A DNA stretch of 64,000 bases. Origin: Muricea muricata. Lineage: Eukaryota > Cnidaria > Anthozoa > Malacalcyonacea > Plexauridae. The notes beneath the pieces are model-generated. The model did no database searches, was not told the DNA's origin, and saw nothing but the letters and a program-made list of their open reading frames with translations. The DNA lies in the NCBI GenBank assembly GCA_963855995.1, contig OY979729.1, forward strand, positions 9,938,115-10,002,114. The letters are read 5' to 3'. Below are positions 4,297 to 36,033 of this stretch, one piece after another. How positions within the stretch are numbered: position 1 is the stretch's first letter; each line of letters begins with the position of its first letter. Position numbers and translations under genes: made by a program.

Positions 4297-4460
4297 ATTC
4301 GTTGTCTCGAGCGGATTTGAACTCGCATCTTCGGGTTTGTAGACCGCCGCTCTACCAATTGAGCTATCGAGCCAAGTGGACAACTAATTTTCGTTGTTCT
4401 CTGCAGTGTCAGATTAATATGAATCTAGTTTTTCATATCTCTGAGGATTTTTCTGGCAAG
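4297..4460 (-). repeat. tRNA-derived SINE
   Basis: Read on the minus strand, 4374-4305 resembles a tRNA: an acceptor-like GGCTCGA, an A box (TAGCTCAATTGGTAGAGC) and a B box (GAGTTCAAATCC). The T-arm pairing is broken, so it is not a working tRNA gene. The flank CAGATTAATATGAATCTAG, followed by TTTTTCATATCTCTGAG, is repeated almost exactly beside the second copy at 39080-39230. This establishes a dispersed family. Confidence 0.75.
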
Positions 4461-9581: not shown

Positions 9582-9871
9582 TTAGCAAGCTTCAATCCCC
9601 TTCAATTTGTCCCTTTCGTTTGACTGAATTTATCCTACGATGCCCCCTCTATTCCTTTATACAGAACCACTGAGGACAGAACTCGCAGACATTGGAACAG
9701 GGACAAGGCGAGAAAATCGAAAAATTTTAGTGTACTTTTCCGTTTCTTTTTTATAGAAGTCAATGAAACCTTTTCGTAATTGACTGCATTTATAGACTGA
9801 GTGGTAAATTATTTTAGAGGCGTATTTATTATCGTGAGAGTATGCAATCATAAGTGAAGAAAGTACTTTAT

Positions 9872-9916
9872 ATGGCCGGTCATCGAAGCACAAAAACCGA
9901 AGTCGATTACCAATGA
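9872..9916 (+). promoter_or_regulatory. Upstream ORF (14 codons) overlapping the ATXN2 copy-1 start
   Basis: An ATG at 9872 opens a 14-residue frame (MAGHRSTKTEVDYQ). Its TGA at 9914-9916 overlaps the main ATG at 9913-9915 as ATGA. The same arrangement is kept in the second copy at 20681-20725 with two residue changes. Overlapping stop and start codons are a known set-up for controlled re-initiation. The transcript start is not known, so its presence in the mRNA is inference. Confidence 0.5.
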
Positions 9917-12900
9917 GTTATAACTCGAGCCGCCTCCGGATGAAGCGAGCAGGAGCTGGTCGGGGAAACTCTGGTGGAAGGTAAGGTAGTATACCTTGTA
10001 TTTCAATTGTCACCCGGCTAAAAATCCATCGAATTCCTAAATGTTTATTTTCGATACAGGTATGTTTAATTTGTATTCATATGTTGTTTTAATTTTGTAT
10101 ATTAACCTGTCATCTCAAAATTTCGTCATTTTGTTCACTAAAGACTATACTAAACGCAACCTGCCTAGCTTAGAAGTGTCTCTGTTGTGCCTTTGTTGTT
10201 GCTGACAAATCTAAGACTTTGAATATGCCATAAATGACAGGTTTTAGCGCCCGACGTCTGACAATAGACCAATTGCGAAACTTAGTAACCGCGCCTTCGG
10301 GTGGCATGAAAAAAAACGACGCTTATGGAAAAGCTCTGTTTTTCTTGTTTACTTTTTCCGAATTTCAAAACGCGAGTCTCCGGGTCTTACAACAATTTTG
10401 ACTAGATTTTTACACTTTTTCACATAAGTTTTCTGTTAATTTGGTAAATCATTACAATTTTCATCAGAGTGGGAAGTTTTGTTGGTAATTAATGTGTTTT
10501 TGTTGGATATTGTTAACTTTACTGTTGCTTCACAAATTCAATAAATATTTAACCCTGAAGGCGTAACTTAAGTTTGCTTTGATATTTGTACTTTTGCATT
10601 CATATTCAGTCTATCAAACTGTAATTTAACACGTAAAAAACATAAAAATCATCAATGCTGATGAACGTGGAAAATACAAAGGCAATATTTATACGGGATT
10701 TACGAAAACATAACGAGTTATGAATGGGCCAAGGGTCTAAAAACAAGCCGTCTACAGAACCAGCAAAACTAAAACTTTTTTTATAAAAAACTGATGAAAT
10801 ATGTGACCTTACTTGACTTCATGTTCATATTTTCCATGACAATTCCACAGGCGTGAAGCAACAAAAAAGTTTAAAAATATCCAACAAAAACATGTCAATT
10901 ACAAACAAAACTTTCCATTCTGATAACAATTATAACGATTTACCCAACTAAGAGAAAAATACCTGAAAACTTGCAAAAAACGAGCCAAAAATGCTGTAAA
11001 ACCAAGCGACTCACGTTCTTAAATTCGGAAAAAGTAAACAAGAAAAGTAGTGCTTTTGCATAATAAGCCTCATTTCCATGTCGCAAGAAGGTGCGGTTAC
11101 TGAGTTTCGCAATTGGTCTATATGAAACGAAATCTGAGATAATAAACCTGATATAAAGACGGATCCACGTGCGTAGTTTAAATGGTTCACAAGAATAAGC
11201 CAAGTGTAATTTTACATTACAGACGCAGAGGGAAACCTCCAAATTTAAACTTGCCACCGAACCAGGTTTGTGACGATGTTGTTCATGTAGTACCAATGGG
11301 TTTAATAGTTTAATGCTTACTGTAATTTGGTACTGGGGTAATTTCCTTTTTTTGTATTTTGCTATTCTGTGACGAAAATTGTATAATTGACCTTCTTTTT
11401 TCTATAAAACTTAGCCTGTGGAGGGATTGTATTCCAATGAACGGATTGTCAATGCTGTCACTTCCGTTGTGGTAAGCAAAAATATCAAAATGACCACAGT
11501 ATTTATTATTAACTTTCACTTTTTGTAGGTCATTGTAATATGAGTAAGGCTAGGGGCTGTTGATGGATATTGAACTCAGACTGGCCCATGTAGCAAGACA
11601 AAATTGGCAAGCGGTTATTAAACAACGAAATGTATATTGTTTACTGGCCAAATCTTGTTGTTTTGACATTCCTAGACATTAATTGTGACATTGATTCCAC
11701 CATATTGGACAGCTGTTAGAAATGCTCCTTAGCAGAATCATTGAACTTATATCTTGTTGATTGAGCCTGCTTTTTGTTAGTGTTTCTTTATATTTAAACA
11801 GTTGTTTTTACTGTAAAGTTTGAAATGAAACAACTTCGCCACCAAAACAAAGTAACGAATTGTTCTGGGTCTTGCGGCATGCCTTGTGCTGATTCTTTTA
11901 CATGCTTGTGTCTTCGAAATGCTATTACCCACCTTTGGAGAGCAGTATTGATGACGGCATATCATTCAATAGTGTCAAAATATTTAGGCCAAATGTATAA
12001 TTTGGCATCATGTAAAATACAGTGACCATAATTTTATGTAAGTGCAAATTTTTTAAAAAATCTACGAGGAGAATCTGAAGATATATTCAGACTTCCTATT
12101 GGGTACAAGGGTGGAGTAAATGTTGTTGTCGAATAAAAATGGTGTCCCAAGGTGGTTTTGTAGCAAAGACTCTCTCCTCCGCAGACGTTATTTAACCTGC
12201 TCTTAAACAAAGTAACAAAATCAATCTTAAACAAAGTAACGAAATCAATCAAACCGCTGAAACACGCTAGAAAATAGTAATGCGGTTCAGCAGTTTGATT
12301 GCTTTATTGATTTCGTAACTTTGTTTAAGATTGATATCATTACTTTGTTTAAGAGCAGGTTAAATAACCTCTGCGGAGGAGAGAGTAGCAAAGGCTGTGA
12401 GTTTATGCTACAGTCTGTACAGTGAAACGTTAGCTGAAATCAGCAGTAATGCTCTCCTGTCTAAAATATAACTTTAATTTTCAATGTAGGGTTGTACTGC
12501 AAATGTGACAGCTCTTACTGGAAAACAGTTTGAAGGAGTGTTCAAAACTATTTCTCCAAAGGTAGAGATGATATTAAGTAACCCTAGTCAGTGTTTCCGC
12601 ATTGAACGAAGTTTATGAATTTGAAAATTTCCAGCCTGACACTCACTCTTTCGGTGCTTTTTTTAACAGGCAAGTTTAGTCCTTGGAAAAGCCAACCAAG
12701 TTGATGATCAGAGACAAAATGGGGTTGTTGTAAGTTCATTTTTTACTTGACATCCTTGGTTGTAATTGGTGTTGTCAAACATGATTGTACTACCACCTGT
12801 GTTTAAATGATGCATTGTTTGTGTTAATGTTTTCCCTGCTGTTTGTAATTGGTTAGGATGATGTGGTACAGAAAATAGATATCTTTGAACAGCTTGTGAT

Positions 12901-15403
12901 TCATCGCAAAGATTGGACAAGGGTTGAGTTTGAAGATGTCAATTTGGAAGAATGTTATTATAAGAACGGTATAATATAGGCATAGTTGTAGCTTGCATGC
13001 TCAAATTTCATATAACATGTTTGTTACATTTGCAGGGTTCGAATTAACGGTGTGCAATGTACAATTTGCACTTCATTTTTGGCTAAAATCAGGAAAACTG
13101 CACACCTTTTTTGTTCAGCAGAACTCTTTTCCTTTATAACTTAGATTACAAAAAAGTGATAAGAAGTTTATTTGCGATATATAAAAGTGTTAAAATTTGT
13201 TAGTTCATCACGCCATGTTAAATTTTTCCCTGAATTGCAATATATTTCCAAATGCACGTACATAATTGACAGTGAAGAGTGTTCTGTCGAGTTATATTTA
13301 GGAATTCATTATTGCGTGAATCTGATTGGTTGGAAGCATTTCCTTAGTCACCCATAGCAACACAGCAGTCTTCTGACATTTTATCTTACTATATATGCCT
13401 AAATACATTTTAGACTTAAGTAGTTGTAAAAGACTATATTCCATGAAATTGTTTGATATTAGATATTTGACTATGCTAGTTCGACCAAGTTATTGGTGGT
13501 TAATTTTTGAAATAACGCAGTTCACAAGCATGTATACATGCTAATAATATTCGGCTGAATGGGCAAGTTATGACAGCTATCTTGTCAAAAACTTATGATT
13601 TTAAGCCATATGCTCCCGGAAAAAATTGCATATCGTTTTTCTCCACTAATTTGAACCCTGTGCATTTGACATCTTTATAAGGGTTTATTTAACTTTTTTT
13701 CTAAAATTTTGTTTGTTTACAATCGAATTCAAAACAGTCATTAGTGGCAGTAGAAGAATGAATGTGCAAAAGCCTTTGGAAGTAAGTTTTTTCATAAGAA
13801 AACCAATTATACCAGCTGACAATTTCATGAAGAATAATAACAGTTTTCAGAACAATTTCTGAACCTTGGCATTTTTTCTAGAAATGGGAGCCTGAGTTAT
13901 CAGAATCAAACATGCTTGAAGGCCTAAGTAATATGGTATGGTATATTAGATATTTTTAAAGATATGTGTTTTCCCAATTGTATTACTAAACCCATCAAGC
14001 ACCAATGCTATCCTCCAGACCCATAAGATGGTCTGGCGTTTTAGCGCAGCACAGTTGTTCGATGCTGGTTCAGGACTTATCCTTTAGTTTCTGTATAGTA
14101 CTACGTATTCATTTAATTCAAACTTCTGGAAACAAGACTACCATAATCTGAAGAAGATTTCTCAGGAACCCCATAGCTTTTTGGCGTTTTTTTTCTCCAA
14201 CACTGTGAATATAATGCAGCCATTTTCCAAATTTGTTATCATTTTGTATTTTTCAATTTATTTTAGGAGACTGGTTGGAGTCCCAAGGAAATGTTTGAAG
14301 TGAATGCAAAAATGGTAATTTCTACAGACTTCTAGATATTTTTTGAGTCAGTGATTTTTTAATACTGATTGTATGAATTGTGTGTTTCAGGGAGTGAAAT
14401 CCACATATGATGAGGACATGGAGGAATATACGTAGGTCAAAGAATGGGACTAAATCATGGGCCTAAACTAAACTGTGTGCTTTCTGATATCTAAATCGTT
14501 ATTTTAAAATGATAGCAAATAACATAAATTATTATATAGCTTTGAAGAATCCTGCATTCTGATTGGTAGATGTGCGGCCCGTAAAAACCCGTATTTGGAC
14601 TGTGGTCCATAAATTTCTGTATTCGGACCAGGCTTTTTCCCAATGTTTTTAATTGCACTTTTTACTGCATGCAATATACTTATTAAATGAAATTAATGTT
14701 TTACTGATATGTTTGAAAACTTTATGTGTAAAAAATAAAGTTTTGTCAGGTTCAACCTTTTTGTATTCTAATTAACGAAATCACACTCGACGTCATTCAA
14801 ATACAAAATGTCACGCTAACTCTGAAAATGACTGCGAGCCATATAATAAAGAGTTTATTGGCCTCGCTTGTTCAGTCTGTACCATGAAATATCGGACTTC
14901 GGTTTTTTTAGTACGGACCTCGCTCGCTAAGCTCGTTCGGTCCGTACTAAAACCTCAGTCCAATATTTCAAGGTACAGACCTCACGCTCAGTCAATAATT
15001 CTTTAATATCAATAAATGGTAACCGCAACGATATATTAAGAAGATTTTTCATCTTATTTTCATGATGAGTTTTAACCACATAGAAATCAGCACTTTTAGA
15101 ATTACTCTGTCTGAGTAGGTTGGAAAATAATTCAAATAGGTTCATTAGGTTGCTCCAAAAAAGATCCATCCCCCACAGAGAAAATTAAGCTCCCCCCCTC
15201 TCCGGACATCCTATACAAATTGAGACATCTCCCTCCCCGGGTGTTTCCTCTGTGGGTGGGTTATGGATCTTTTGGAATGACACAGTATAGTAATAAGTAA
15301 ATATTAAATGTAATTTGACAGGACAAAACTGGAGAAAGTTGATACTCCTGAGTACCGAGAAAGGGAGAGGTTTGCCGCTCAGAAAGCAGAAGAAATTTTC
15401 AAG
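9913..15403 (+). CDS. ATXN2: Ataxin-2 5' module, copy 1 (Lsm + LsmAD, 11 exons, no 3' half of its own)
   Basis: Exons: 9913-9980, 11223-11265, 11415-11471, 12490-12561, 12670-12729, 12857-12968, 13738-13781, 13882-13935, 14267-14314, 14391-14431, 15322-15403. They total 681 nt, or 227 codons, all open and ending in phase 0. The Lsm domain spans exons 3-6 (NERIVNAVTSVV, FEGVFKTISPK). The LsmAD begins in exons 9-11 (GWSPKEMF, STYDEDMEEYTT). The sequence is very close to copy 3, with substitutions in exons 1, 2, 4 and 6-9 and none in exons 3, 5, 10 and 11. Homology to copy 3 stops within the intron just before exon 12, so the module can only make full ataxin-2 by splicing over copy 3 to 26281. 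It may be an alternative 5' module with its own promoter, part of a tandem-Lsm transcript, or a decaying duplicate. No disabling lesion is visible. Confidence 0.7.
10267..11118. mobile_element. MITE with TA target site, inserted only in ATXN2 copy 1
   Basis: It has terminal inverted repeats GACCAATTGCGAAACT and its complement, with arms extending over 200 bp (inner words TTGTTTACTTTTTCCGAATT and complement). It lies in intron 1 of copy 1 and is flanked by TA. The matching spot in copy 3 (about 21066) runs straight through, giving an empty site. It therefore inserted after the duplication or was lost precisely from copy 3. The TA site suggests the Tc1/mariner type. Confidence 0.85.
12169..12385. 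mobile_element. Palindromic MITE with 8-bp target duplication, only in ATXN2 copy 1
   Basis: It is a near-perfect palindrome whose ends are ACTCTCTCCTCCGCAGA and TCTGCGGAGGAGAGAG. It is flanked by direct repeats TAGCAAAG at 12161-12168 and 12386-12393. Copy 3 has a single TAGCAAAG at the matching place (about 22609), so the empty site is directly visible. An 8-bp duplication is typical of hAT elements. It sits in intron 3 of the copy-1 module. Confidence 0.9.
14875..14980. repeat. Foldback hairpin in ATXN2 intron 10, copy 1
   Basis: The arm GTCTGTACCATGAAATATCG, continuing through a TTTAGTACGGACC word, is followed by its reverse complement. Related hairpins lie at the same intron position in the partial copy (16369-16467) and, degraded, in copy 3 (24987-25050). 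The hairpin therefore predates the duplication. Confidence 0.8.
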
Positions 15404-16808
15404 GTAATTTTGAAATTCACCTCAATTACAAGCCTTGAAATAAATATTTTGTCCAGCAACTTCTTGTTAAACTAACATACTTTCTATTTTTAATATCTGC
15501 ATAAACTATGAACCCAGAGATACAACACAAACTTCTTTTCAATTTTCTTAATTGATTCCCTTTCAAATCTGCGTGTGAACACTAAAATATTCTTCTGGAA
15601 GGACATTTGCAAGCAACTGAGAATGCTGGTGGGTAAAAACAACAAGTGTTAGGCCTTAAAAATACCTATGGTTCCCGTTTCAAATTATGAAAAATTACGG
15701 TTGGTAGGTCGAAAAAAGTTTTCAATAAATTTTTTTCATCGTTTTGGCTGTTTTGAATAAAGTCAAAGTACGTATTTCCTATGGATAATTTTAGGCAATT
15801 AGTTGTTGTTCATTCACATATCCTATGAAAATAGAACACAGGATATGTACTCGCATTTTGAATAATTCATCATAAATCAAGGCACAAACAAAGGTCACCT
15901 GGGCAAACACTTGGAAAAAATAGTAGGGTTGGCAGAAAAAAATTGGAAAACCAGGTACAACAGTGAAATTTCCCCTTCAAAAAAAAACTGCCCAATCAAT
16001 TTAGCTATAGCAATCACACAGCAATGCTCAGCCTTTGGCTTGGTGTATGTAAACCTTGGGAATCCTAAAGTCCATAGATTGTTGCAAAAACACTGTTCTC
16101 CCATGTTTCCCTGTATTAGCAAACTAGGAAACATTGTTTCCGCATAAAAATGTTTCTGAGTTTGATGGAAACATTTTTGCTTTCCAGAAAGCAAAATCTT
16201 GTTTCCGCAACAATGTTTCCTGTGGTGGGCAACCTGGGAAACGTAAGGAGCATAATGTTTCTGCAACAATGTTTCCTAGTTTGCCCAGGGCTTAAGTTTT
16301 GCATGACTATTCAGGGCTGCATAATATACAGTTTATATAATAAACAGTTTATTGACCTCACTTGTTCAGTCTGTACCATGAAATATCGGACTTCGTTTTT
16401 TTTTTTAGTACGGACCTCGCTCGCTGGCTCCGTACTAAAACCTCAGTCCGATATTTCATGGTACAGACCTCACGCTCGGTCGATAATTCTTTAATATCAA
16501 TAAATGGTAACGGCAACGATATATTAAGAAGATTTTTCATCTAATTTTCATGACAAGTTTTTACCACATAGAAATCAGCACTTTCAGAATTACTCTGTCT
16601 GAGTAGGTTGGAAAATAATTCAAATAGGTTCATTAGGTTGCTCCGGAAAAGATCCATCCCCCACAGAGAAAATTAAGCCCCTCCCTCTCCGGACATCCTA
16701 TACAAATTTGAGACATCTCCCTCCCTGGGGTTTCCTGTGTGGGTGAGTTATGGATCTTTTGGAATGACACAGTATAGTAGTAAGTAAATATTAAATGTAA
16801 TTTGACAG
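15404..16808. other. End of ATXN2 copy 1 and start of the partial copy
   Basis: Intron sequence similar to copy-3 intron 11 runs to about 16310 and stops at GACTATTCAGGG. In copy 3 the equivalent GACTATTGCAG is immediately followed by exon 12. From about 16335 the sequence restarts with intron-10 material matching 14840 onward. The duplication joint is therefore at 16310-16335. No exon 12 is present here. Confidence 0.75.
15897..16290. mobile_element. Inverted-repeat element of GAAACAATGTTTCC type, copy 1
   Basis: The ends are CACCTGGGCAAAC and GTTTGCCCAGGG. Internal words such as GGAAACATTGTTTCC and GCAACAATGTTTCC are themselves palindromic. The orthologous element lies in copy 3 at 25873-26255, so insertion predates the duplication. 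Related fragments occur in the GGT gene (52840-53220) and near 43550-43640. Confidence 0.8.
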
Positions 16809-16890
16809 GACAAAACTGGAGAAAATTGATACTCCTGAGTACCGCGAAAGGGAGAGATTTGCCGCCCAGAAAGCAGAAGAAATTTTCAAG
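16809..16890 (+). pseudogene. Extra copy of ATXN2 exon 11 (partial third copy, about 16335-16987)
   Basis: This 82-nt exon has intact splice sites and encodes the same peptide as exons 15322-15403 and 25268-25349 except Val to Ile (LEKIDTPEYRERERF). Most differences from the other copies are silent. Only this exon and flanking intron are duplicated. Homology ends near 16987, where foreign sequence begins. The exon enters in phase 2 and leaves in phase 0, so it can replace another exon 11 but cannot be added in series without a frameshift. It may be an unused relic or a mutually exclusive alternative. Confidence 0.65.
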
Positions 16891-17005
16891 GTAATTTTGA
16901 ATAATTTCACCTCAATTACAAGCCTTGAAATAAATATTTTGTCCAGCAACTTCTTATTAAACTAACATACTTTCCATTTTTAATATTCTGAAACATAATC
17001 GTATC

Positions 17006-17746
17006 GTGTACGAAGAGCAAAAATGTATTCGGATTTCTTGGTACCACAATCAATGGCAAGAATGTTACGAAGAGTTAAAAAGTAGAAATGAGAAATGCCC
17101 AGTAGAAAAAAGTAGAAATGCCCAGTACTTGGCTCTCTTCCGAAGTCCTAGCGATCGAAAACAAATCGGAATTATTGGAGAACGCATGTTTGTCAAGAAT
17201 AGAGTGCACTTTATGAATGCTTATTACAAGGAGACCGAAAAACCGTTTGGATACTTATTGGTGGACAACAAGCCTGATACACCAGCCGATCAGCAAATTC
17301 TTGCAGACCTATTTGGAGAATGCTATGTTTATCACTTCGGTGTAAACAGTACTGAGCCTACACGTGTGGAAAACCAAGCCTGTAGGCAAACACAGCACAG
17401 CAACCAAAACCACCTTTTCAAGGAAGAAGCCTGTGCAAACCGTCACCTGGTCCAATGCAACTATTTCCGAGTGGAAAAAATCTTGGGAGCACCGGGGGTC
17501 CGTAAGATTCCGGAAGGATATGTTATCATCGAAATGTACAACACATCGTGTAATACAAGTTATCAGCCTGTCCGTGGAGGTGTTGAGATCAATGGCGAAA
17601 ATTATTGGCCTGTGAAATTAAAGCACCGGTCTACAGGTCATACCAAATGGTCGAATTTACACAGCGATGAGCCTGCCGTCCAATCCATTGTCAAAGAAAC
17701 CATGAGAAACACTACAGAGCCAAAGATAAACTATTACCCTAAGTAA
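17006..17746 (+). CDS. Unrecognised 246-codon intronless ORF, probably 5'-truncated
   Basis: The open frame actually runs from 16961 and has no early ATG; coding-like sequence starts near 16991, close to the end of the partial ATXN2 copy (about 16987). It is the longest frame in the window outside recognised genes and has normal amino-acid composition, for example KETEKPFGYLLVDNKPDTP, DLFGECYVYHF and EINGENYWPVKLKH, with several Cys and Trp. I do not recognise a domain with certainty. Being intronless and beside a foldback element, it may be a fragment of a mobile element or retrocopy inserted here. It ends with TAA and no in-frame stop interrupts it. Confidence 0.45.
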   Translation: MYEEQKCIRISWYHNQWQECYEELKSRNEKCPVEKSRNAQYLALFRSPSDRKQIGIIGERMFVKNRVHFMNAYYKETEKPFGYLLVDNKPDTPADQQILADLFGECYVYHFGVNSTEPTRVENQACRQTQHSNQNHLFKEEACANRHLVQCNYFRVEKILGAPGVRKIPEGYVIIEMYNTSCNTSYQPVRGGVEINGENYWPVKLKHRSTGHTKWSNLHSDEPAVQSIVKETMRNTTEPKINYYPK

Positions 17747-17844
17747 ATGCTTGTCATGAGAAGGCTATATCTTAACAAACATGTGGAAACACAGTTCTCT
17801 TTTATATGTTTACTCAACCATATTAGGCATAACGCTATTGATAA

Positions 17845-18175
17845 CGTTATCATGCTGAAGTTAGCCGCCATCTGATCGGTAACGTTACCGGTAACATTAG
17901 AGAGGTTAAAATTTATGTTTACGGCAGACCGGTAACCGCAAACGCCAAACTTCAAGTCGCATTTGAAGGTAAATTCTACAAGTTTTGGAAGGTTTCGACA
18001 AGTTTTTAGTCAATCCATTTTTCAATAGTAATGCACAAATTATCCTAATTTCGAACAGCTAACACTTCACCTGAAAATCCGACTTGAAGTTTCGCGTTTG
18101 CGGTTACCGGTCTGCCGTAAACATCAATCTTAACTTCTCTATTACTGGTAACATTACTGGTAGCATTATCATGAC
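17845..18175. mobile_element. Foldback element downstream of the unknown ORF
   Basis: Left-arm words GGTAACGTTACCGGTAACAT and GTTTACGGCAGACCGGTAAC are mirrored on the right by GTTACCGGTCTGCCGTAAAC and GGTAACATTACTGG. Arms are about 130 bp with some mismatches and the centre has no coding sequence. It may mark the 3' side of the sequence that carried the ORF at 17006-17746. Confidence 0.75.
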
Positions 18176-20486
18176 GTCAGTGCATGACGTACTCGTTACT
18201 TGCGGCGCCAATACCATCCTGCATACTCATTACTTCCGGCGCCAACCTCTTGCATACTAATTACTTCCGCCGCCAACCTCCTGCATAAATTATTTCGCCA
18301 TCTTGAATTTATAATTACACCCCAAAGGGGCCGTAGAGTACTACTGCCAGTCAACATTGTTGAATATCCGGCAGTAAATGTGAGAAAAATGAGGATTCGT
18401 TTTCTAAAATCAAAGTGTCCGTGACGAGCCGGGTCAAACGGAAACTTAATGGGATCCTGACATTGGGAATCGATTCAATTTGTGTCGCATTCCCCTGCGG
18501 CCGGCATTCAACATATTTTATTGGGGAATATCAATGTTAACAGAAGCTCTCTAAAACAGTTACAGCTAATCGAAATTTGGTGCGTTTTTGGGTTGGAAAC
18601 TTCTCGGCAAGTCAAGCTTTTCATTGGTCGAGAACCGTGATCTATTTCAGCGACAAGCCAATCACAGTCATTTCATAATTATCAACAGCCAATCGGGTTC
18701 TAAGTTTTGTATATGGAATGTCACGTCAAATGGCGTACTAAAATCTTCTCCCCGCGCTACAAAACCACAGCTTGGCGAAATTTTAAATTTTATATTTTCC
18801 AGGTATTCTACACCATCAAACGCCACCAAACTTTGGGATTTTACAAATTTTAGGATGCTGTTTTTAGCTGTGATCAGAAAGATTTTGTTCACAGCTCACA
18901 TATTGCCTGGTCGCTATTGCACTTTCTGCATGTTCTCATGAGAGTGCCTCATGCTGTGTACCATTCTGCACTAGATCCAATTTGTTAAATTATGCTCAAA
19001 TATTTTGTTAATGTTACTATAAAAAGGAGACATTAGTTTGAACACTTAATGTGACGAAGGAAATATATGTACTGAAAATTGGATAATTAGAATAATTAGA
19101 TAACGAAATAATTAGATAAAAATGACCACCGAATATTCCATAGATAATTATAATAAATTCTCTGATGTAATTATAGACCTTATACGGTAAATGATTGTAA
19201 ACCAAATTCCTTGTAATCCCATATATATGTATGTAATTGTGCTGTAAAAATAGATTGATACAAAACTCTGATGTTGTAAGTTGTACTTAATCTGCAGTAG
19301 ATAGTGATGGCCGCATCCACAACACTAAGTGCTCTTTGTGTATCAAGTTGGTTTATTATTGTAATCAATTGCACGTTATCTTCGTATCCAACAATTACTG
19401 TATATATTTATGACCAGTCGCCCTATGAGTTCTGAAGGGTCTTACCTTTTTTTAAATAAATTTAAATGATAATAATAATGGTGTTATTGTTTACAAATTT
19501 CAGTAATCGTCGAAAAAACGTACTTAATTTCAATGCAAAAACGTTTACCTTATGAAACAAAATTTAACTTAAAGAAGCTCCCCGTCCAGCAATAGCTTGA
19601 AGTGCCATTGCGGTAAATGAGCATAATTTTTTTGGGCTTGTTGATCACAACACCTTTTCATAAACATACATAATACACGACTTTTGCGACAATTTTGTTT
19701 GAAGCCTAATTGAGAAGTGTTTATTTCGGTAAAATAATTGAATTGTAGCTTTTTTATTTAGTACATTTTTCGTACGGTGTACTTATTTTGCAGTCGCCTG
19801 CGGAAGTTTAGGGAGGCCTCACCTAATAGCTAAGCCCAGGGACTACTGCGGAAACATCAATGTTTCAAATTTGTCTGGGCCGGTTGTATCAAAGGCGTTT
19901 AGCTTAAACGGTGGATAAGTTGAAGATATAAAACAAGTTTTTACATTACATGAACAAACTTTACGCTAAACGCCTGTCAACAACCACAGCCCCAGCAATC
20001 AAAATGCCAAGTATACGAAAAATGCAAAATAAACATTATTGCAATTACAACAGTTACTTTTTAAGATTTCCTACGTGCGTAAATGGCATCCAATACAACG
20101 TAATTATCCCTTAATATCATCTTGAGAATTAAGCCGAGTTGTAAAAAAGACAAAATTTCTAAGCAGCGATATTGGGGAGTTTATTGAAGGGGTATATCTT
20201 AATATTAAAAAATAATAGCAATAAATAAATCCTTTCGTCGTTTCTGTATTGCAATGGTGTATATATGTTGAAGTCTTCAAATCAATTTTTTTATGGAAAT
20301 CACAAAATTTCCGTGATTTAGCAATGAAAAGGTCACGAGCCAATTAATGTCACGAATACATCCACAGGCGAGAGAACTGGGGGTAGGTAGGTTGAGAGAA
20401 GTTGAAATGATCAGAGCGTTTTGTACAGCCCCAATATTGTTGAAGGTTGAATTCTCCCAATGTGTTTTTTAAACGCGTGCTTCCTG
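18176..20486. other. Spacer between the ATXN2 copies, no gene recognised
   Basis: It begins with three imperfect roughly 31-bp tandem units (TTACTTCCGGCGCCAACCTC type) at 18196-18290. Copies of a family A inverted-repeat element follow at 19877-19998. Two frames of 117 and 74 codons on opposite strands at 18588-18941 look like chance. Homology to the copy-1 upstream region starts at about 20487. Confidence 0.5.
19877..19998. mobile_element. Degraded copy of MITE family A
   Basis: The left end GGGCCGGTTGTATCAAAGG, followed by GCTTAAACGGTGGATAAGT, matches the element at 302-519. The right end is diverged (GCTAAACGCCTG). The centre is shorter than in the first copy. Confidence 0.7.
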
Positions 20487-20680
20487 ACAGAACTCGCCGA
20501 CATTGGAACAGGGACAAGGCGAGAAAAATCGAAAAATTTTGGTGTACTTTTCCGTTTCTTTTTTATAGAAGTCAATGAAACCTTTTCGTAATTGACTGTA
20601 TTTATAGACTGAGTGGTAAATTATTTTAGAGGCGTATTTATTATCGTGAGGGTATGCAATCATAAGTGAAGAAAGTACTT

Positions 20681-20725
20681 ATGGCCGGTCATCGAAGGAC
20701 AAAAACCGAAGTCGATCATCAATGA
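20681..20725 (+). promoter_or_regulatory. Upstream ORF (14 codons) overlapping the ATXN2 start, second copy
   Basis: The frame MAGHRRTKTEVDHQ ends in a TGA that overlaps the main ATG at 20722 as ATGA, exactly as in copy 1. The roughly 230 bp upstream of both starts is also highly similar (from about 9673 and 20487), so each module carries its own presumed promoter and leader. That this leader is transcribed is inference. Confidence 0.5.
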
Positions 20726-26700: not shown

Positions 26701-29700
26701 GCTGGTTCCCAAAATCTGGAAGCCACGTGACCAGCATTCACCAGGGTCTCTCAGGGATCTCTTCCTCCAGCGAGGAGCCTAGAGAAGATAGCCTGGGTAC
26801 GAGATTGTGCGTAGAGACATTTTGCAGGTCACAAGGTTCATAAAGGTATGTGTAATGTGTACAATACGAGCGACCATGTTATATTGAGTATACAATCCCG
26901 AGTCGAAGACGAGCGATTGTATGTTCAGGACAACATATGGTGAGCATTGTAAACAAATTGCAAAATCAATTTATGCAAGTCAGTTACATGCATTTCTGTG
27001 GTTGTAACCAGTTGTATACAAATAGGGAGACATGTTGAACTGCTGGATGGCCCTACTGTCAGTGTGGAGTGCAACAATTTTGCTTTGATCTTTGAAAAAA
27101 GTTTTCCACGTAATTCTAAAATGTCCTTCAAAGTGAGGCAAATTAAAATCATATTGCCATATCCCTTCAAGCAGTACTATTGACTTCTATTATATCTGAT
27201 CAGTCACAAATTGATCATTCATTCAGCGTGTACATTGTTTCCCATATACTCGATTCCTGGCCATTGTATTCCCCACTGCCTACTGTTCATTTCCTACATT
27301 GTGACGTAGCATTGAGTTACCTTATCCCGTGAGCTGTTTTGCTGTGCGCAATTATTTCTACACAAATTACAAAATAACTCTCATAACTCATAACAAACTC
27401 TCTCTTTCTCCGTTAGTGAAAAGTCAAACGAAACCAAATGAGGAAACGACGGATGCCCAAGAAGTACGTGAAACTACAGTCAGTGACATAAGTATTGGAC
27501 CGACAGTAACGGCTATGGTCTTGTATGATGGCGCCAATAATTTTTATGGCCGATATAGCAACATTGAGACGGGGGAAGGGGGGTTTACATGTGAATTTTC
27601 ACAAATGCATTCAAAAATATCTTATCGATCTAAGTGTGGGACCAAATTTCAATGTCTCTGATTGTAACTTTAGTTCTTTATACGTTTGGTGACTAAAGTG
27701 GCAACAAAAGCCAACAGTGACAAGAAATGTGTTATACTTGAAATTGCGGCCGTACTTGACTTATGACTTGCGACTTGGCATCCTGCAGCAAACTTGGTAT
27801 TAACAATCTTGCTGACGGCATTACTATTGTTAGTTGTCAGACCTGTCCTTAAGGTGGCTCGATAGTCAGAATTCATTAGAAATTTATTTTATTTTATTAT
27901 TAGTCTCTACGATTAAATGTTTTGTAGTGAATGCTTGAGCTTCGTTTTAGGTCATTGCACAGCTCTATAGCACTGTTTGCTGTATTTAAAAAAAATTTCT
28001 TCAAAGTTTGCCTGAACATAGAAATCACGTTTCCTGTTGGAACTCAATTCTAATTATAATTCATTTGCATAAACTCCACACCTCACCTATGACAACAATA
28101 TTTCTGGACATACGAACGGTAGGAGTATAAAACTTTTCCAATTATGAAGACAACCAGTAGAGCTATGCAATGACCTAAACTAAGCTTTACACGCGACCTA
28201 TAAAAGATTCTATGGCGATAGAAGTATTATGTGCTATGAGTTAGACTATCGAGCCACCTTAATAGTCTTGCTACAAGTTGTGACAAGTCTGCAAATAACA
28301 AGTTGCAACAAGCCTGATTCTGACAGACTTGTCGCAACCTCATGATGATTGGCAAATTTGTTGTTACTGGTTGACAAGCTGTATCAAGCGAATAAAATTG
28401 ACAACTTGAAATTTCAATAAGTTGCAACATACTTGTCAATTTCATCAAGTTGCAACGAGTCTGTCAAAATCAGATGTTGCGACTTGTCATTTTCAGATTT
28501 GTTACAACTTGTCGTAACAACTTGCGGCAAGCCTGTGGATAACAAGTTTTGACGATCAACTCAAAACGAGTCTTTCAACAACGTGCGACAGATTTGTCAT
28601 CAACAAGCTGTCGAACCCATACAGATATCAGCTTGTCATCGAATTGTTGCAATTTGTGCGTTTTTGGCTGTGTGTGACAGTGACACTTTAAGCAAAGATT
28701 TGTGGTCATTCCTTTACATATGCATTCTCGTATTTCCGAAGGTAAAAGAAAAAATCGACAAGCCCGTGACAGAAACGCCTGTGGAATGTACACCTGAACA
28801 AAAATTAGAAGGTAATAATTATTTGATTCTCACGTTTAAGAGTAATTCTTGGCTTTCACGTGACGTCATAAATTTCACTGGGGGTCAACTCAAAATCGAT
28901 ACACAGTCATTAAAGGGAAATAATTTTTGACTGTATGTGTTGACCTTTTGTTTGGTAGCAAATATGTGCAATTTCGTGAGATTTGTTCACTCCAGTACAG
29001 TATAATCATCAATACATTTTGTTTTGCCCCCCACTCAGATTTACTGCAAAATGCCCTAGTGAAACCCAAGAATAGCAACAAGGAATATTCGTTGCTCGTT
29101 TAAATAGCTTTTGAAATAACTAACAACGCCTTTTACAGATTTTTCATGTCTAGTTTCACTCGAGAGATTTTTCAGCTGGAACACACGGGCAGCAGTCCGC
29201 CATCTTGGATTTTCAAGAATATGCATGTTTAGGTCACAAGTGGGGTCACGCAGCATTTAGTTATTGACAAGCAACGATCAGTTCCTATTTGCTATTGGAT
29301 ATCACATATCGAGCAAAAGCATTTTGGCCAACTAATGTTTGTTACTTACTTTCTTACGAGTAATTGTTTAAGGCTTATCCCACTTGTGCCGTCATATAAT
29401 AAGCTCAAAAATTTATTCAAGATGGCGGACTGATGACATGTTTGAGTCCAAATATCTCAAGAATTAAGCAACAAATGAAAAAGCTGTAACAAGTTTTGTC
29501 GGTTATTCCAGGGTCTTTCAATTGAGCAAAGAACTTTTTTGTTGCCTGTGACCCAAGAAATGTTGTTAAGACATATTATATATTTAAAATAATGTTATCC
29601 AGAGAGTCAAATGGTCGAAAATAAAAGTACACGTTTGTCAAAATAGAAAGGGTTGTTTACATGAGACGTCCTAACCCTGGTTAGTCACCCTGATTTGTGA

Positions 29701-32700
29701 TCATTGAACTGTAATACAACTGTAACGCTAACTTGATACAAAAGTTCAGTTAATGCATGGTTGAAGCCAAGTCAGTTTTTCTGAGTTTTGAGACGAAATA
29801 CTTAACGCCAAAGATCGGACCGTATATCAAATTGAAGCTATTAAAAAGTTACATTTCATATGAAAAATTGAAGACTTTAGACAAAAAAGAAATGCCTAAA
29901 AAATACGAAAACAACTGCAATTTTACAGAATACAGCGAAATTCCCTTAGAACTTTAAGTTGTTTTTCTTTTGCCTGAAGTCTCGAAATTTTTACATCAAA
30001 TACAACTTTTTCATAGCTTTTATTGGATATACAACCCATTTTTTGACGTAAGTATTTCAACTCAAACTCAGAAAAATGAATCAAATTGGCTTCAATTTCC
30101 CCCCACTGACGTATTGTTCCAGTTTACTTATAGTTCAATGTTTGTGATACGAAAATTTTTCCTCTTTGGCTGACGCAAAACAAATTTACGAACAGACTCT
30201 AAGTTTTTCATCTTGATTTTGTTAGCAGCATTCAGTGATGTGGTAAAAGCCGATGCAAAATCTGTCCAAAATGCCGATCAAGATAAACCCTCATGTACCC
30301 CAGATAAACCCTCAGTCACCCTAGTCAACGCAACCGTTACCCCCGTTAACCCAACGGTTACCCCTGCCAATACAACTGTTACCCCTGCTGCAACAGCACA
30401 GCAATCAACAGAAATCTCCCAGAGTCCCAGTAATGTCCCTGACGTAGTCGCCCCGAAAACAAATAATGCTGAGAGAGGCAAAGATCTCAAAAACTTCAGC
30501 GTCAACTTCAAGGTAAATTGAAAACGCGAAATGTAAAGATGATCTGACATTTTCACTATAATTTTGCAGAAACTCCACTTAAAACTATTATCAGTAAGCG
30601 CGCGGATCCGATTCTATGTGTACGTCGTGTCCACATCAAAAGTTCTGTTCCCAGAAAGTTGTATATCTTTCAAGGAACTTCTTCGAAATTTTGAGGAATT
30701 GGTCAAATTTACGTGGTGTATATTTCGAGACTTTGCATGTGTGTAAACTGAAAAATTTACGTAGTGCTTTCACAAATATTGATATTCACCATGAGAAAGT
30801 GCAAAGGTCTTATTAATTAAAGATGTTGCTTGTATCTCGGTTGAATTTAATTAAGATGGAATCTACCTCTGAAATGGATGCACCAATCCAACGAGATTGC
30901 CAATCAACTGTAAAGGTTGTGTCAAACAAGAATAACAGTTGATTAGAGTTTGCTGTCAGGAATGCGACAAGAGGACATTTTAAGCTTCGCACTGAAAAGT
31001 AAAAGCATGAGTGTTTTTGTTTTCATTTCAATAAAATACGCGATTGTGTTGGGAAAGCACCAAGAATAGTGGCCAGCCAAGAGCACACGAGTGCTAACTC
31101 TCATCAACTCTCATAGAGAAAGTGAAACTTTTGAACCAACATACAACGGCAATATTTTTGCAGTCCAAAAGAACAAGCGTTTAGTGCTGCTTTTTATCTT
31201 CTTGCAACAAAAATTTTGCGTGCACGTTACATGCAGCTCGCACTCTTTCCTTGCGACTTGTTAACGCGCATGCTCGAAAAATGTTTAGGCGCAAAATGTC
31301 GCTCCGCGCGCAAAATTCCGCCCAGTGGAAACAGTCTTGCGTCGCAACAAAATTGCGGCGTAATTGCACAATGTAACAGCACTTTGAGCCGTCGTTTTAA
31401 TCAATGGATGAGTTAGTAGACGCGCATAACTTTTACAAATGAAGTAACAGTGTGTTTATCTCGCCAGCTTGCCGAAAAAAAGGGAAAAGGAAAAGTGAAA
31501 AAAGTTGAGGAAGAAGTCAAGACGCCAAACGGAACAACGAATAAAGAAGAGAAACCTGATGGTTGGTTTAAAATTTTGATTTTAATTTTTTTTTGTTTTG
31601 ATGGCCGTCAAGGAACAACTTTATAAGCAATTGAATATGTCGTGCATTTGCTCATGTCTGTTTTGATGTTTTCTTTCAAGCTCAAGTACCAGACGTCAAA
31701 GCAGACACGGAATCTGCTGATAAGAAGGCAAAATCCGAGCTCAATCCCAATGCACAAGAATTCCGGCCCAGGGGAAAACGTAATACCCCAAGTCCGGTAA
31801 GTAAACGGCGCCGTGACAGAGCATTGATGGGAAACAATGCTTCCCAGTTTGCCGTGGGTTTACTGTCGTTGCAGTTGAACTGTTTGTAAAGTATTGTATC
31901 AATGCACTTTCCGAGGCTGATCAATTCATTTGCTAGAAAATTCATCAACTTCCTTGAAATTTGCTCAACTTTCTGTATACGTTTACGTGTTCTGGTTGGT
32001 CAATATGTCCTGAAGTCAAATCTAATTGGTTAACTGGAAAAAAGAAGTTGGTCGACTGTCTGTCCAATGAGTTGACGCAATTTATTATTTCCATTTCCAT
32101 TGCAGCGACAGTAAATACGAAAAAACCGAAACATACCATAGCTTTGTTTAACTGTGTCTTTGTTTTTCAGAGAAACAGCACACCTTCAAGTAGTGCAACA
32201 ACATCCACTTTCCAAAATAGCCCCGCGTTCCCAGGGCAAGTCTCACCCTACCCTCAAAACAATATTTACCAGCGTAATGGACCCAGGGGTAGAGGTAAGA
32301 TGATAAATATTGCATGATTCAAATACATTGTAATCTGAATCAGTCAACGTTGTATTTTGTTGCAATATTTACTAATAATGAACGAAACGAGAAAATACAA
32401 TTTTTTGTATTTTCTTTTCTTCTAAACTTTTTCTTCTACTGGTGTCCATGTTGACTGGAGATTCTTGTTTCGGTAGACACGTAGAAAAAAAAATTAAAAA
32501 AAAAAACGAGGCAAACTTGGGAATTGAACCGTCGACCTTGAGTACAAGGCCGCATTGACCACTGAGCTGAACGGATTATGCGCGGAAAAGTGTAATCAGA
32601 TTTTGAAATGTGATAACAATTCTCCGCGCATGGTACAAAAGTATACAAAATTTACAAACTTCACAGGACTATGTTTTTGACGTTATGCAATATTTTGCAA

Positions 32701-35700
32701 CCAAACTTCGCCATTTTACTCCAGCTGTGCTAATGGTATTCCTAATTCAAAAGTTTGTCTAAAAGGGGAATTGTCCATTGAGCGTTTAAAAACTGTATTT
32801 ATAGTGCTACGTAGTAATCTAAAATTGTACATTATCAACTTCCGTTTGATGCTAGTGAAGTAAACCTTTTTCAAATGCAATTTTTCCCATTTTTGCGCAC
32901 TACCTATTCTACTTAACAATTAGATTACGAGGTGATAGTGACGAAGCCCGAATCAACCCCCGAATATAGGCTAGTAATTACCGAACCTGAGGCGACTAAT
33001 TGTTTTGGTATAAATTTCTAGGTGTTTACAAATAATAATCAAGTAAACTTAACAAAAATTCACTTCAAATTTATTACTGTATGAAAAAAAGAAAAAAGCT
33101 ATAGTCACTAGTCAGTGGCTATCAGTGAATCTTGACCAATCAGAATGCTGGAAAATCAATGATCATCTGGAAATTTATACTAACGTCTCATATAGAAATC
33201 GAGAGCGAGTAATCTAATTGTTTTAGTAGGATCAGATAACAAACATTATATTCAACGATAAAATTGATTTTAAGCATTCTTTTCCAAAATAATTTCAAGT
33301 TGGGTGTTTCTTTCGCTACTCGCTATCTATCGAGGAATCGATAACGGCGAGAGTAGCCGCGTGGAATAGCCAATAGTGCACTACACGCGTGAAAATTATG
33401 AGTTGTCGAAGGGTTTTGAAAACAGAATTGAACAATGTTGTGCTGCCCACATTGTTCAATGTTGTCAACAATACTGAACAAGTTGTTGAGCCTGAACTAG
33501 CCTGCAATCGGGTGTAACAATACTGAACAACAACATTGAACAGTATGGGCAGCACAACGTTGTTCAATCCTGTTTTCAACAGCACTATGATTCTTCTAAT
33601 CTGCGCTATGATCAACTCAGTTCAATGTCCTCTTTAGGCATACGACACGAGTACATGGATACAGCAGCAGGCTACATCAACGCCAGCACTGCCACTGGGC
33701 AGCCGTTCTTTGCTCAACACATGCCCCCTCAGTTTATACATCAGCCCACCCCTCCTGGAATGAACTTCATTTCCCCTGGAGGCCTCCGTCATCCTGGAAT
33801 GCAACCTGTTTTCATACAACAGTCCCCTCACCAACCTATGATGGTACCTGTGGGACAGATGCCCCCTCATTACCCGGACAACGCCCTCTACTACGGTATG
33901 TATGCCTTTGCGGAGACGTTATAATTCTACCTGGAGCGATAACTTGTGATATAAGTGATTAACAACAGCAAAATTGATTTCTGTGTGGTAGCTAGTTCCA
34001 GGCCTTTTACTCACGGTCAGATCAGCTAGAATGACTCAGCGATCATGGGCAACATATCGTCAGCCGAGGATTAACGAGGTCTGCATGTGTTTCGAGAAGA
34101 TGGGGGACGATCACTTTTAAACATGCGGAAGCTCAAACAAAACTCTTAAAGGGGAATGGCAACAAAAATTTTTATTCTCTCATTTAAAAGAGACTCTAAA
34201 AGTAATATATAACCGTCTTTTACAAAATTTTTATATCTGTTTTACTTTGGGAGATATTGTCACCTGAATAATTGAACTGTCCGCCATCTTGGATTAATTT
34301 TTAACCTCATTAACAATGTTTTGGTGACGTCACAACAGGGATAAGCCATTCAAAGCTTCTCCTAAACATGTACCAACAATCAAATATTGTTTAAAATCTT
34401 TTCAGTCCGTGCTGAAATCTGAAACACTTACCATGTGTGTGGTTATTGGAGAAGATTAATCATTGTGTCGTAAGAAAAAAAAATTGCGTGACCCCTGTTG
34501 TGACGTATCATGCATATCTACAAATATCCAAGATGGCGGACAACTAAAGATTTCAAGTGAAACTATCCCACCAAATAAGGCAGATATAAAAATTCTGCAG
34601 TAGACTCCTATATATTGTTTTGGAGTCTCTTTCAAATAAGCCGATAAAAATTTTTGTTGCCATTTCCCTTTAAGTTGAATCAACTCGTCGACGTAGGACA
34701 TCTACATAACAATGACGTGAAATTAATTTTGATGGGCACCTTTGTTCGATTTTCCGAAAATTCATCTCGCATCTTCTCAAAACACAGATAGACTTTGTTG
34801 GCCCTCAACTGACGATATGAGAACCAGATGTATGTCTCATGTCACGACATTTCTCCTTCAAGGTCCTGCAATGCCGACAATGCTTCAAAGTCCGCCTCAG
34901 CAAATCACGTCGCCCTCCTTACAACCATCACAGTTTACCTTTCCTCCCACTCCAATCAGCACGGTACGTCCGGCGACACAACCCCCTCCTGTGATCCCCC
35001 AGCAACCCGGCGGTCCAGTGCTGTACGCTGTTCGGAACAGCGAAATGCCGCCAACACAAATAATACAAAGTAAGTAGCGAGCAGGAATGCCGCGGTCAAA
35101 ACGTTTCGCACGTGCAAAAGAAATCCGGACGAAATTTCTTAGCTACTTGTTTGTAAGTTTGGAAATATTTCTTTAAGAATATAGAATATCTATAATGAGA
35201 TGATACACTAAAATCGATCAAAATTTCTGCAAATCCAATCGCGACGTGTAAAAACTGGTCAAATTATAAAGGGAAATGTCTTTTCCATATCAACTGCAAA
35301 GACATACGCTGCCGCAACTTTTCTAATGGTTTCGAGAAGGTTTAAAACACTTCATAATGAACTCAAGGCGGCTATCTTGGACTATCCTCATTAGTTATTT
35401 ACAGGCAAATTCAAAAGGGAACAGAGATTATTGGTGAAAAATTTTTATTCACACAATGTTTGTTCACTCCCACCGATAACCTAAAACTGTAAAAATTTCT
35501 TCTACGTCGATAGTACGAATGTAGATTTATAGTCAATAGTCTAATATGGCCGCCATTGGCTCCATTTATGCGTGGCAGAAGCTTTATCCAGTTTTAGTTA
35601 TTGATCAGTGGAACGGCTGACTCCAACATTCAACTATTGGTTGTTTAGGTAAAAATACAGTAGGCACGTGATGTGATAGGTACCGATGTGTCCATAAAAC

Positions 35701-36033
35701 ATGACAATAACATTATAACAGTGTAGCGGGTAAGCAGTATGCCCACTCAGCAGTGCAACATGTCCCCTATTTTTTATGCCATTAACTGGCCATAGGAATG
35801 GCTGAACAGCCAGTTCAGAGTTTCTATTGGCCAGAAAATGTAGTTGGCTGGCCACAACCTGAATAATGAAGATGCGTAGTGCGACATGTCTGGGGACACA
35901 AACTTCAAAGGCGACTTCCAAGCGACGACCCACTAGGTCTTATGATACTTTGATCCATTCCTTCATCCAGACGGTCTATTTTGTTTTTCCAACAGGTAGG
36001 CCACCAGGACCTCAGTCATTCCAAGGAAACTGA
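20722..36033 (+). CDS. ATXN2: Ataxin-2 (Lsm, LsmAD, PAM2), 21 coding exons
   Basis: Exons: 20722-20789, 21170-21212, 21362-21418, 22715-22786, 22893-22952, 23071-23182, 23951-24000, 24102-24167, 24503-24550, 24627-24667, 25268-25349, 26281-26482, 27417-27463, 28742-28811, 30226-30512, 31468-31561, 31681-31796, 32171-32294, 33638-33895, 34863-35069, 35996-36033. All phases agree; the product is 713 aa. Ataxin-2 is a cytoplasmic RNA-binding regulator of translation and stress granules. Lsm is at about aa 38-137 (FEGVFKTISPE) and LsmAD at about 177-265 (GWSAKEMF, EEYTTKLEKVD, ESPYERNAF). The PAM2 motif ELNPNAQEFRPR (about aa 486-497) binds poly(A)-binding protein. The C-terminal third is Pro/Gln-rich (QQSPHQPMMVPVGQMPPHYP), as in the family. 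It is shorter than human ataxin-2 (about 1300 aa) and has no polyglutamine tract. Exon 15 has a tandem TAGCAG acceptor. Confidence 0.93.
21673..22107. mobile_element. hAT-type MITE, family B, only in ATXN2 copy 3
   Basis: The 435-bp element is flanked by 8-bp direct repeats GAAATACT (21665-21672 and 22108-22115). Its terminal inverted repeats are CAGTGAACTGTAATACAACT and the matching AGTTTACTTATAGTTCAATG. Copy 1 of ATXN2 lacks it at the matching site (about 11720), so it arrived after the duplication. A second full copy lies at 29702-30140; partial copies lie near 41555-41640 and 48980-49090. The 66-codon frame inside also exists in the second copy but differs mostly by amino-acid-changing substitutions. 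Confidence 0.92.
25873..26255. mobile_element. Inverted-repeat element of GAAACAATGTTTCC type, copy 3
   Basis: This is the orthologue of 15897-16290, in intron 11 just before exon 12. The right end reads CCTAGTTGCCCAGGG. Divergence from the copy-1 element is modest, in line with the surrounding intron. Confidence 0.75.
26503..26808. mobile_element. MITE with CTCGTACCCAG ends in ATXN2 intron 12
   Basis: The left end AACCTCGTACCCAGGCTCTC and the right end GCCTGGGTACGAGATTGTG are inverted copies. Inner arms carry CCCAGATTTTGGGA and TCCCAAAATCTGG. There is no coding potential. Confidence 0.85.
28260..28670. repeat. ACTTGTTG/CAAC low-complexity repeat in ATXN2 intron 13
   Basis: Words such as AGTTGCAACAAGCCTG, GACAAGTCTG and TTGCAACTTGT recur on both orientations. 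It belongs to the same loose family as 3283-3909 but lacks clear terminal arms. It ends just upstream of exon 14 (28742). Confidence 0.7.
28850..29074. mobile_element. Short inverted-repeat element, family C
   Basis: It is bounded by CTTGGCTTTCACGTGACGTC on the left and GTGAAACCCAAG on the right. A second copy lies inverted at 59308-59530 with ends CTTGGGTTTCAC and GTGAAACCCAA, sharing internal words such as CACGAAATTGCACA and AACACAAGGTCA. A diverged relative lies near 48030-48240. Confidence 0.75.
29075..29550. mobile_element. Foldback element with YY1-like motifs, ATXN2 intron 14
   Basis: Paired words lie in inverted orientation: GTCCGCCATCTTGGAT near 29195 with CAAGATGGCGGACTG near 29418, and CACAAGTGGGGTCA near 29235 with its counterpart near 29385. 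The outer ends are diverged, so limits are approximate. Confidence 0.55.
29702..30140. mobile_element. hAT-type MITE, family B, second copy (ATXN2 intron 14)
   Basis: The 439-bp element is flanked by perfect 8-bp direct repeats TTTGTGAT (29694-29701 and 30141-30148). Its terminal repeats begin CATTGAACTGTAATACAACT and end AGTTCAATG. It aligns over its whole length to the element at 21673-22107. It lies just upstream of exon 15. Confidence 0.92.
32488..32590 (-). repeat. tRNA-derived SINE (Pol III promoter and T-run) in ATXN2 intron 18
   Basis: On the minus strand the sequence has A box CAGCTCAGTGGTCAATGC, an anticodon-like loop, and B box GACGGTTCAATTCCC. Long T runs follow at about 32512-32488, which could act as a Pol III terminator. 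Acceptor pairing is poor, so it is not a standard tRNA gene. Confidence 0.7.
33417..33580. mobile_element. Foldback element of TTGTTCAATGTTG type, ATXN2 intron 18
   Basis: The left arm GAACAATGTTGTGCTGCCC, preceded by TTTTGAAAACAGAATT, is mirrored by GGGCAGCACAACGTTGTTCA and CCTGTTTTCAA. It lies about 60 bp upstream of exon 19. Confidence 0.8.
34146..34673. mobile_element. Foldback element with YY1-like motifs, ATXN2 intron 19
   Basis: The ends are TTAAAGGGGAATGGCAACAA and TTGTTGCCATTTCCCTTTAA, with long AT-rich arms. The inner arms hold TCCGCCATCTTGGATT near 34280 and CCAAGATGGCGGAC near 34529. TTAA is at both ends but is part of the symmetry, so it cannot be called a target duplication with certainty. 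Confidence 0.85.

Follow-up and report, generated by a model that had tools for sequence, protein, structure and literature searches.

The ataxin-2 locus carries a doubled 5' half

We analysed the ataxin-2 locus of Muricea muricata in a 64-kb stretch of genomic DNA (the window; C14:9938115-10002114 of a 453-Mb assembly with 74 contigs), which contains no N and lies in a contig of at least 12.5 Mb. Self-BLAST shows that two parts of the window, copy 1 (9675-16315) and copy 3 (20486-26281), match each other in collinear blocks on the same strand at 86-97% identity. Gene models with explicit splice borders place 11 exons in each part, and the copy 1 exons at 9913-15403 recur in copy 3 at 20722-25349. 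Exons 12-21, from 26281 to the stop codon at 36033, are single in the window. This layout, with adjacent part-gene copies on one strand and the remainder of the gene single (exon 12 representing exons 12-21 in the genome-wide search), is that of a partial tandem duplication.

All features of the gene lie on the plus strand. The 5' module of copy 1, delimited by self-BLAST and by alignment to 20486-26281, occupies 9675-16314; it begins about 236 nucleotides (nt) 5' of the ATG and ends near the 3' splice site of intron 11. Its modelled exon 1 holds the start codon (9913-9980) and is followed by exon 2 (11223-11265), exon 3, in which the Lsm domain begins (11415-11471), exon 4 (12490-12561), exon 5 (12670-12729), exon 6 (12857-12968), exon 7 (13738-13781), exon 8 (13882-13935), exon 9 (14267-14314) and the LsmAD exons 10 (14391-14431) and 11 (15322-15403). 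The copy 3 module (20486-26280; self-BLAST and alignment) is continuous with exon 12, and its exons 1 to 11 are modelled at 20722-20789, 21170-21212, 21362-21418, 22715-22786, 22893-22952, 23071-23182, 23951-24000, 24102-24167, 24503-24550, 24627-24667 and 25268-25349, respectively. Aligned with copy 3, exon 7 of copy 1 is 6 nt shorter and exon 8 is 12 nt shorter, in frame. The single 3' half comprises exon 12, where LsmAD ends (26281-26482), exons 13 (27417-27478), 14 (28742-28811), 15 (30229-30512) and 16 (31468-31561), the PAM2-bearing exon 17 (31681-31796), exons 18 (32171-32294), 19 (33638-33895) and 20 (34863-35069), and exon 21 with the stop codon (35996-36033). A small exon near 13036, considered by eye between exons 6 and 7 of copy 1, was rejected; it has no GT donor in the right phase, and exon 6 joins exon 7 directly.

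The 11-exon modules measure 681 nt in copy 1 and 699 nt in copy 3 and are both free of stops. All of their introns are GT-AG, the intron phases are identical, and exon 11 ends in phase 0 in each; joined to exons 12-21, the copy 1 module gives a full frame of 711 residues and the copy 3 module one of 717. Each copy has an in-frame stop 5' of its ATG with no in-frame ATG in between, and the DNA shared upstream of the ATG extends for about 235 nt, with 7 of 229 counted sites differing. These rebuilt models bear out the initial annotation, which had described 11 open exons in tandem with intact splice sites and a phase 0 passage into exon 12, each set with its own start codon and similar upstream DNA; it was also right about phase at 15403|26281, 15403|21362 and 9980|11223. 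It had spoken of a copy 3 and left copy 2, a partial copy with an intact exon 11, undescribed.

Both modules encode an SM-ATX (Lsm) domain, scoring about 46.5-47.1 bits in copy 1 and about 51.0-51.6 bits in copy 3 (Pfam; cut-off 29.8). LsmAD is partial in a module alone and becomes full length (profile positions 2-72 of 72) when exons 11 and 12 are joined, with 46.9 bits for copy 1 and 47.0 bits for copy 3. PAM2 lies in exon 17 of the shared 3' half (25.8 bits; cut-off 20), and the locus thus has the SM-ATX, LsmAD and downstream PAM2 of an ataxin-2 gene. A search of solved structures returned only three chance matches (best E value, 0.82). The Lsm domain of ataxin-2 binds U-rich RNA with LsmAD assisting (PMC11898529).

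Exon 12 has one match in the whole assembly. The block of exons 4-6 has 23, of which the two at full length are copies 1 and 3, while the remaining 21 are confined to a portion of the intron that follows; the longest of these spans 187 nt of the query at 77%. The 5' protein gives 18 matches (E up to 1), all of them within C14:9948027-9964595. A search of the genome with the LsmAD family gave no match and is uninformative, the control being unmatched as well and LsmAD being split over exons. In the intron after exon 6, parts of 13009-13219 recur elsewhere in the genome, in the 21 partial matches of the exon 4-6 search.

Copy 2, the spacer and the edges of the duplication

Copy 2 (16335-16990; self-BLAST and three-way alignment) repeats copy 1 positions 14841-15499 around exon 11 and keeps that exon (16809-16890) and its splice borders intact. 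In the three-way alignment around exon 11, 409 sites agree and 94 vary; the varying sites unite copies 1 and 2 in 54 cases, copies 1 and 3 in 31 and copies 2 and 3 in 8, and one differs in all three. There is also a stretch common to copies 1 and 2 that is missing from copy 3. Because of these groupings and this shared stretch, copy 2 most likely arose from copy 1 when the latter and copy 3 were already separate.

The left flanks of copies 1 and 3 cease to match about 235 nt 5' of the ATG. The right edge of copy 1 (16314, corresponding to 26280) lies practically on the 3' splice site of intron 11, and a plausible acceptor is thereby kept without exon 12. Copies 2 and 3 are separated by a 3.5-kb spacer (16991-20485) that has no long homologue elsewhere in the window, where it matches only its own inverted repeat and 64- and 44-nt stretches near the window start. 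It contains most of a 261-codon open frame (16961-17746, plus strand) that begins at the end of copy 2 and is possibly a captured gene or the remnant of an element. Up to E = 1, this frame matches no Pfam family, and its one pattern match among viral contigs, a collection poorly suited to an animal gene, was unconfirmed by tblastn.

Divergence and constraint between copies 1 and 3

Counting only sites in well-aligned windows of 41 columns, copies 1 and 3 differ by substitution at 37 of 649 exon sites (5.7%), 177 of 2996 intron sites (5.9%), 7 of 229 upstream sites and 68 of 818 sites after exon 11. Exons and introns have diverged equally. Their alignment has 42 gaps, the largest of which leave 856 and 225 nt in copy 1 only and 443 nt in copy 3 only. 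The longest of these, with 856 nt (10265-11120), lies in the first intron of copy 1 and is absent at the copy 3 site; it has long inverted ends and resembles a DNA transposon. The copy 1 stretch of about 225 nt at 12160-12386, likewise absent in copy 3, consists of two complementary arms (93%). One element occurs both in intron 3 of copy 3 (21672-22107) and in the intron before exon 15 (29701-30140), the two being 87% identical.

The ratio of nonsynonymous to synonymous divergence (dN/dS, or omega), a comparison proposed in the initial annotation, is about 0.35 by the NG86 method (bootstrap 95%, 0.20-0.64), and three other methods give dN of 0.042-0.047, dS of 0.108-0.112 and omega of 0.39-0.43. 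Nonsynonymous sites, with 23.5 differences in 539, are not significantly slower than noncoding sites, with 247 in 4032 (p = 0.14). Synonymous sites are faster than noncoding sites (p = 0.02), so dS may overstate the neutral rate and omega may look too low. The 4032-site count and the rate of insertions and deletions (indels) omit the gap-rich interval 14481-15250, in which two bins differ by 14 and 18%, and a 6-nt gap at the exon 7 border is treated as noncoding in this analysis. By region, there are 6.5 nonsynonymous and 2.5 synonymous differences in exons 1-2, 8 and 8 in the Lsm exons 3-6, and 9 and 2 in exons 7-9. Judged from the sequence comparison, constraint is weak outside the LsmAD exons, which keep their amino acids.

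With expectations computed at the intron rate, the 24 nonsynonymous differences are compatible with neutrality of copy 1 and constraint on copy 3 (18.9 expected; p for at least 24 = 0.15), and also with an omega of 0.5 in both copies (17.2 expected). Two neutral copies should show more differences (34.4 expected, p = 0.04), and two copies with an omega of 0.35 (12.1 expected, p = 0.0016) or of 0.1 should show fewer. Taken together, these results suggest that at least one copy is relaxed in the Lsm and linker regions, yet that neither has freely decayed for long. Copy 1 is the likelier relaxed copy, although the polarity is weak, because its exons 7 and 8 are shorter, its SM-ATX score is lower and its residue scores worse at five of the six differing Lsm sites (at one of them by only 0.1 bit).

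Splice joins open to copy 1

We examined nine exon joins for an open frame. Four stop early, after 233 or 249 residues, namely copy 1 exon 11 to copy 2 exon 11, or either of these to copy 3 exon 2. The next copied exons that follow copy 1 exon 11 are copy 2 exon 11 and then copy 3 exon 2, and both joins shift the frame. The other five joins are open, and all of them skip exons. Three give 711 residues (copy 1 exon 11 to exon 12; copy 1 exon 10 through copy 2 exon 11 to exon 12; copy 1 exon 10 to copy 3 exon 11), whereas copy 1 exon 1 joined to copy 3 exon 2 gives 717 and copy 1 exon 11 joined to copy 3 exon 3 gives 907.

Neighbouring features

Elsewhere in the window, Pfam matches mark gamma-glutamyltranspeptidase pieces at 49916-53775 and an RNF34/RFFL-type protein with a SAP domain at 46793-47494, both on the minus strand, and an Rfam match marks a transfer RNA gene at 4303-4373, also on the minus strand. 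Positions 36264-37255 and 50916-51489 hold related repeats, the second being an array with a spacing of about 80 nt within the span of the gamma-glutamyltranspeptidase pieces.

Interpretation

We favour, with a probability of roughly 0.6, the reading that copy 3 and exons 12-21 form the working gene and that copy 1 is a relaxed 5' fragment, still undecayed. A segment starting just 5' of exon 1 and ending with intron 11 would have been duplicated in tandem. Copy 3 would have remained joined to exons 12-21, probably driven by the short upstream stretch copied with it, and copy 1 has the other 5' flank, with no link of its own to exon 12. The exon 11 region of copy 1 would later have been recopied as copy 2, and a 3.5-kb stretch would have come to separate the copies. 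Copy 1 still keeps its frames and splice sites, with constraint probably relaxed in the Lsm and linker exons; its transcripts would most likely be truncated or frameshifted, and the fragment would be heading toward a pseudogene. Which copy works, which has changed more and what becomes of copy 1 are points that we infer, and the locus, with copy 1 still readable but drifting in sequence and of only putative use, looks like an ordinary partial gene duplication.

Such a history would have partial parallels. Like a single-gene animal ataxin-2, the locus has Lsm, LsmAD and PAM2 and one 3' half; it differs in its 5' half (Lsm and the beginning of LsmAD), which is present as a tandem pair. One survey reports ataxin-2 as a single gene in those of its chosen species that are neither vertebrates nor land plants (PMC4105795), and a later survey treats whole-gene duplicates in vertebrates and plants (PMC12898128). 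ATXN2 and ATXN2L likewise arose by duplication within the family, but as whole genes that lie on different human chromosomes (PMC12898128), whereas here only the 5' half is copied and stands beside the original. A tandem duplication of the 5' half of ataxin-2 was not found in the excerpts of these two surveys or in the ataxin-2 literature examined, a search that was not exhaustive. Tandem duplications in Drosophila yakuba, 1004 of 1116 of which took in genes or gene fragments, can copy the 5' part of a transcript and run it into new DNA, and such 5' fragments may activate neighbouring DNA (PMC5460883). The D. yakuba cases are polymorphic in populations, whereas here the copies have diverged by about 6% and a second partial copy has been added.

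Several observations weigh against copy 1 being a relaxed fragment. By NG86, dN (0.045) is lower than dS (0.127; Fisher test of nonsynonymous against synonymous sites, p = 0.004). Exons 10-11 show no nonsynonymous and four synonymous differences; with copy 1 alone neutral, this absence of nonsynonymous change has p = 0.043, and set against exons 1-9 it has p = 0.013. Copy 1 is intact, which a simulation in which one copy evolves neutrally, with intron rates for substitutions, splice sites and indels, yields with a probability of 0.11, 0.0135 or 0.0025 when 25, 50 or 75% of the divergence is placed on it, and in 0 of 4000 runs when all of it is. At Lsm site 59, the copy 1 residue scores 0.8 bit better than that of copy 3. 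Finally, no outgroup was found to polarise the changes: the 280-residue copy 3 protein had six pattern matches among viral contigs, although several of the patterns searched there cross exon joins, and exon 19 had 54 among contigs of prokaryote genomes, a collection poor for an animal gene, and none of either set was confirmed by tblastn. Because copy 1 is intact, its exons 10-11 are free of nonsynonymous differences and dN is below dS, the comparison argues for a period in its past when it served as coding sequence. For retention of the units by selection, intactness and exons 10-11 thus speak in favour and overall nonsynonymous divergence does not.

The best-surviving alternative, which we nevertheless consider unlikely, is that the two copies act as alternative 5' modules, each with its own promoter and each spliced to exon 12, yielding two ataxin-2 forms that differ in the Lsm and linker regions. 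The phases fit, each copy has its own ATG behind an in-frame stop, LsmAD is full length with either module, exons 10-11 encode the same residues in both copies, and the intactness of copy 1 exceeds neutral expectation once half or more of the divergence falls on it. Two 5' starts leading into shared exons are also reported for Drosophila ataxin-2, whose isoforms B and C have different first exons and a shared second exon (PMC5095142); there the first exon alone differs, whereas here 11 exons including Lsm are doubled, with putative use of both sets. UGT1-type clusters are likewise built of tandem 5' units ahead of one common 3' set (PMC3325998), and here too each unit has its own start and an open frame in phase with the common exons; the UGT1 units have one exon and a promoter each, whereas our locus has two units of 11 exons with putative promoters. 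Against two such forms, splicing from copy 1 to exon 12 would have to skip copy 2 exon 11 and the internal exons of copy 3 over about 11 kb, the joins to the next copied exons stop, and constraint in Lsm and linker is weak, with 23.5 nonsynonymous differences in 539 sites where an omega of 0.35 in both copies predicts 12 (p = 0.0016). The suggestion in the initial annotation that the locus could express two forms therefore holds in part: two open, in-phase modules precede one 3' half and no further copy of the gene was found in the assembly, but the stopping joins and the weak constraint outside the LsmAD exons leave unsupported the idea that both feed that half.

It is somewhat less probable still that copy 1 has become a short separate gene, encoding an Lsm and half-LsmAD protein that lacks PAM2 and ends in a terminal exon at 16315-16494. 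With a score of 8.2, the acceptor at 16315 falls inside the span of the 30 modelled sites of the gene (3.1-15.2), ranks in the top 2.1% of 1442 AG dinucleotides and comes first among the acceptors considered after exon 11; past it, 59 codons are open before a stop, and AATAAA follows at 16499. Such signals are common in this AT-rich DNA (AATAAA or ATTAAA occurs eight times in 15.4-17.0 kb), the tail is mostly intron-like DNA of copy 2, and the score matrix was built from the sites of this very gene, the homologous exon 12 acceptor included. An end of copy 1 in this terminal exon is possible but weakly supported.

We regard as improbable that two haplotypes of one locus were assembled in tandem. 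Haplotypes of very diverse animals can differ by about 6%, a divergence like that of the copies. As context only, heterozygosity in two corals is reported as 1.14 and 2.3% (PMC10236652). Against such an artefact, the sequence is gap-free inside its large contig, the flanks of the copies are unrelated and a 3.5-kb spacer lies between them, with neither homologous flanks nor a gap at the seam, and a third, partial copy is present. Had a haplotype been set in tandem, one would expect flanks that are homologous or exon 12 twice, whereas exon 12 has its single match. Of the 227 aligned codons, 21 encode different amino acids, a proportion that seems to us high for alleles of this kind of protein. 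It is much likelier that the sole ataxin-2 gene detected in the assembly underwent a real partial tandem duplication, because the matches are confined to the locus, exon 12 is single and no long homologue of the spacer occurs in the window.

A read-through protein with two Lsm-LsmAD units, made by joining copy 1 exon 11 to copy 3 exon 3, is very improbable, since this join, though in phase and open over 907 residues, would have to skip copy 2 exon 11 and copy 3 exon 2, and splicing to the closer acceptors, 16809 and 21170, leads to stops.

If copy 1 is unused, the locus would be a clean instance of partial tandem duplication at a stage between origin and decay, and it would caution that gene prediction may yield chimeric models of ataxin-2 at this place. 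There is a small chance that it instead comprises two promoters and two diverging Lsm-linker modules with an unchanged LsmAD core, all serving one PAM2-bearing 3' half; a two-form locus of this kind would extend the UGT1 layout, with two units of several exons each, to an RNA-binding protein. Were copy 1 expressed and joined to exon 12, Muricea muricata would offer a natural experiment on ataxin-2, with two RNA-binding modules on one PAM2 tail, in which the LsmAD core is fixed and Lsm and linker drift.

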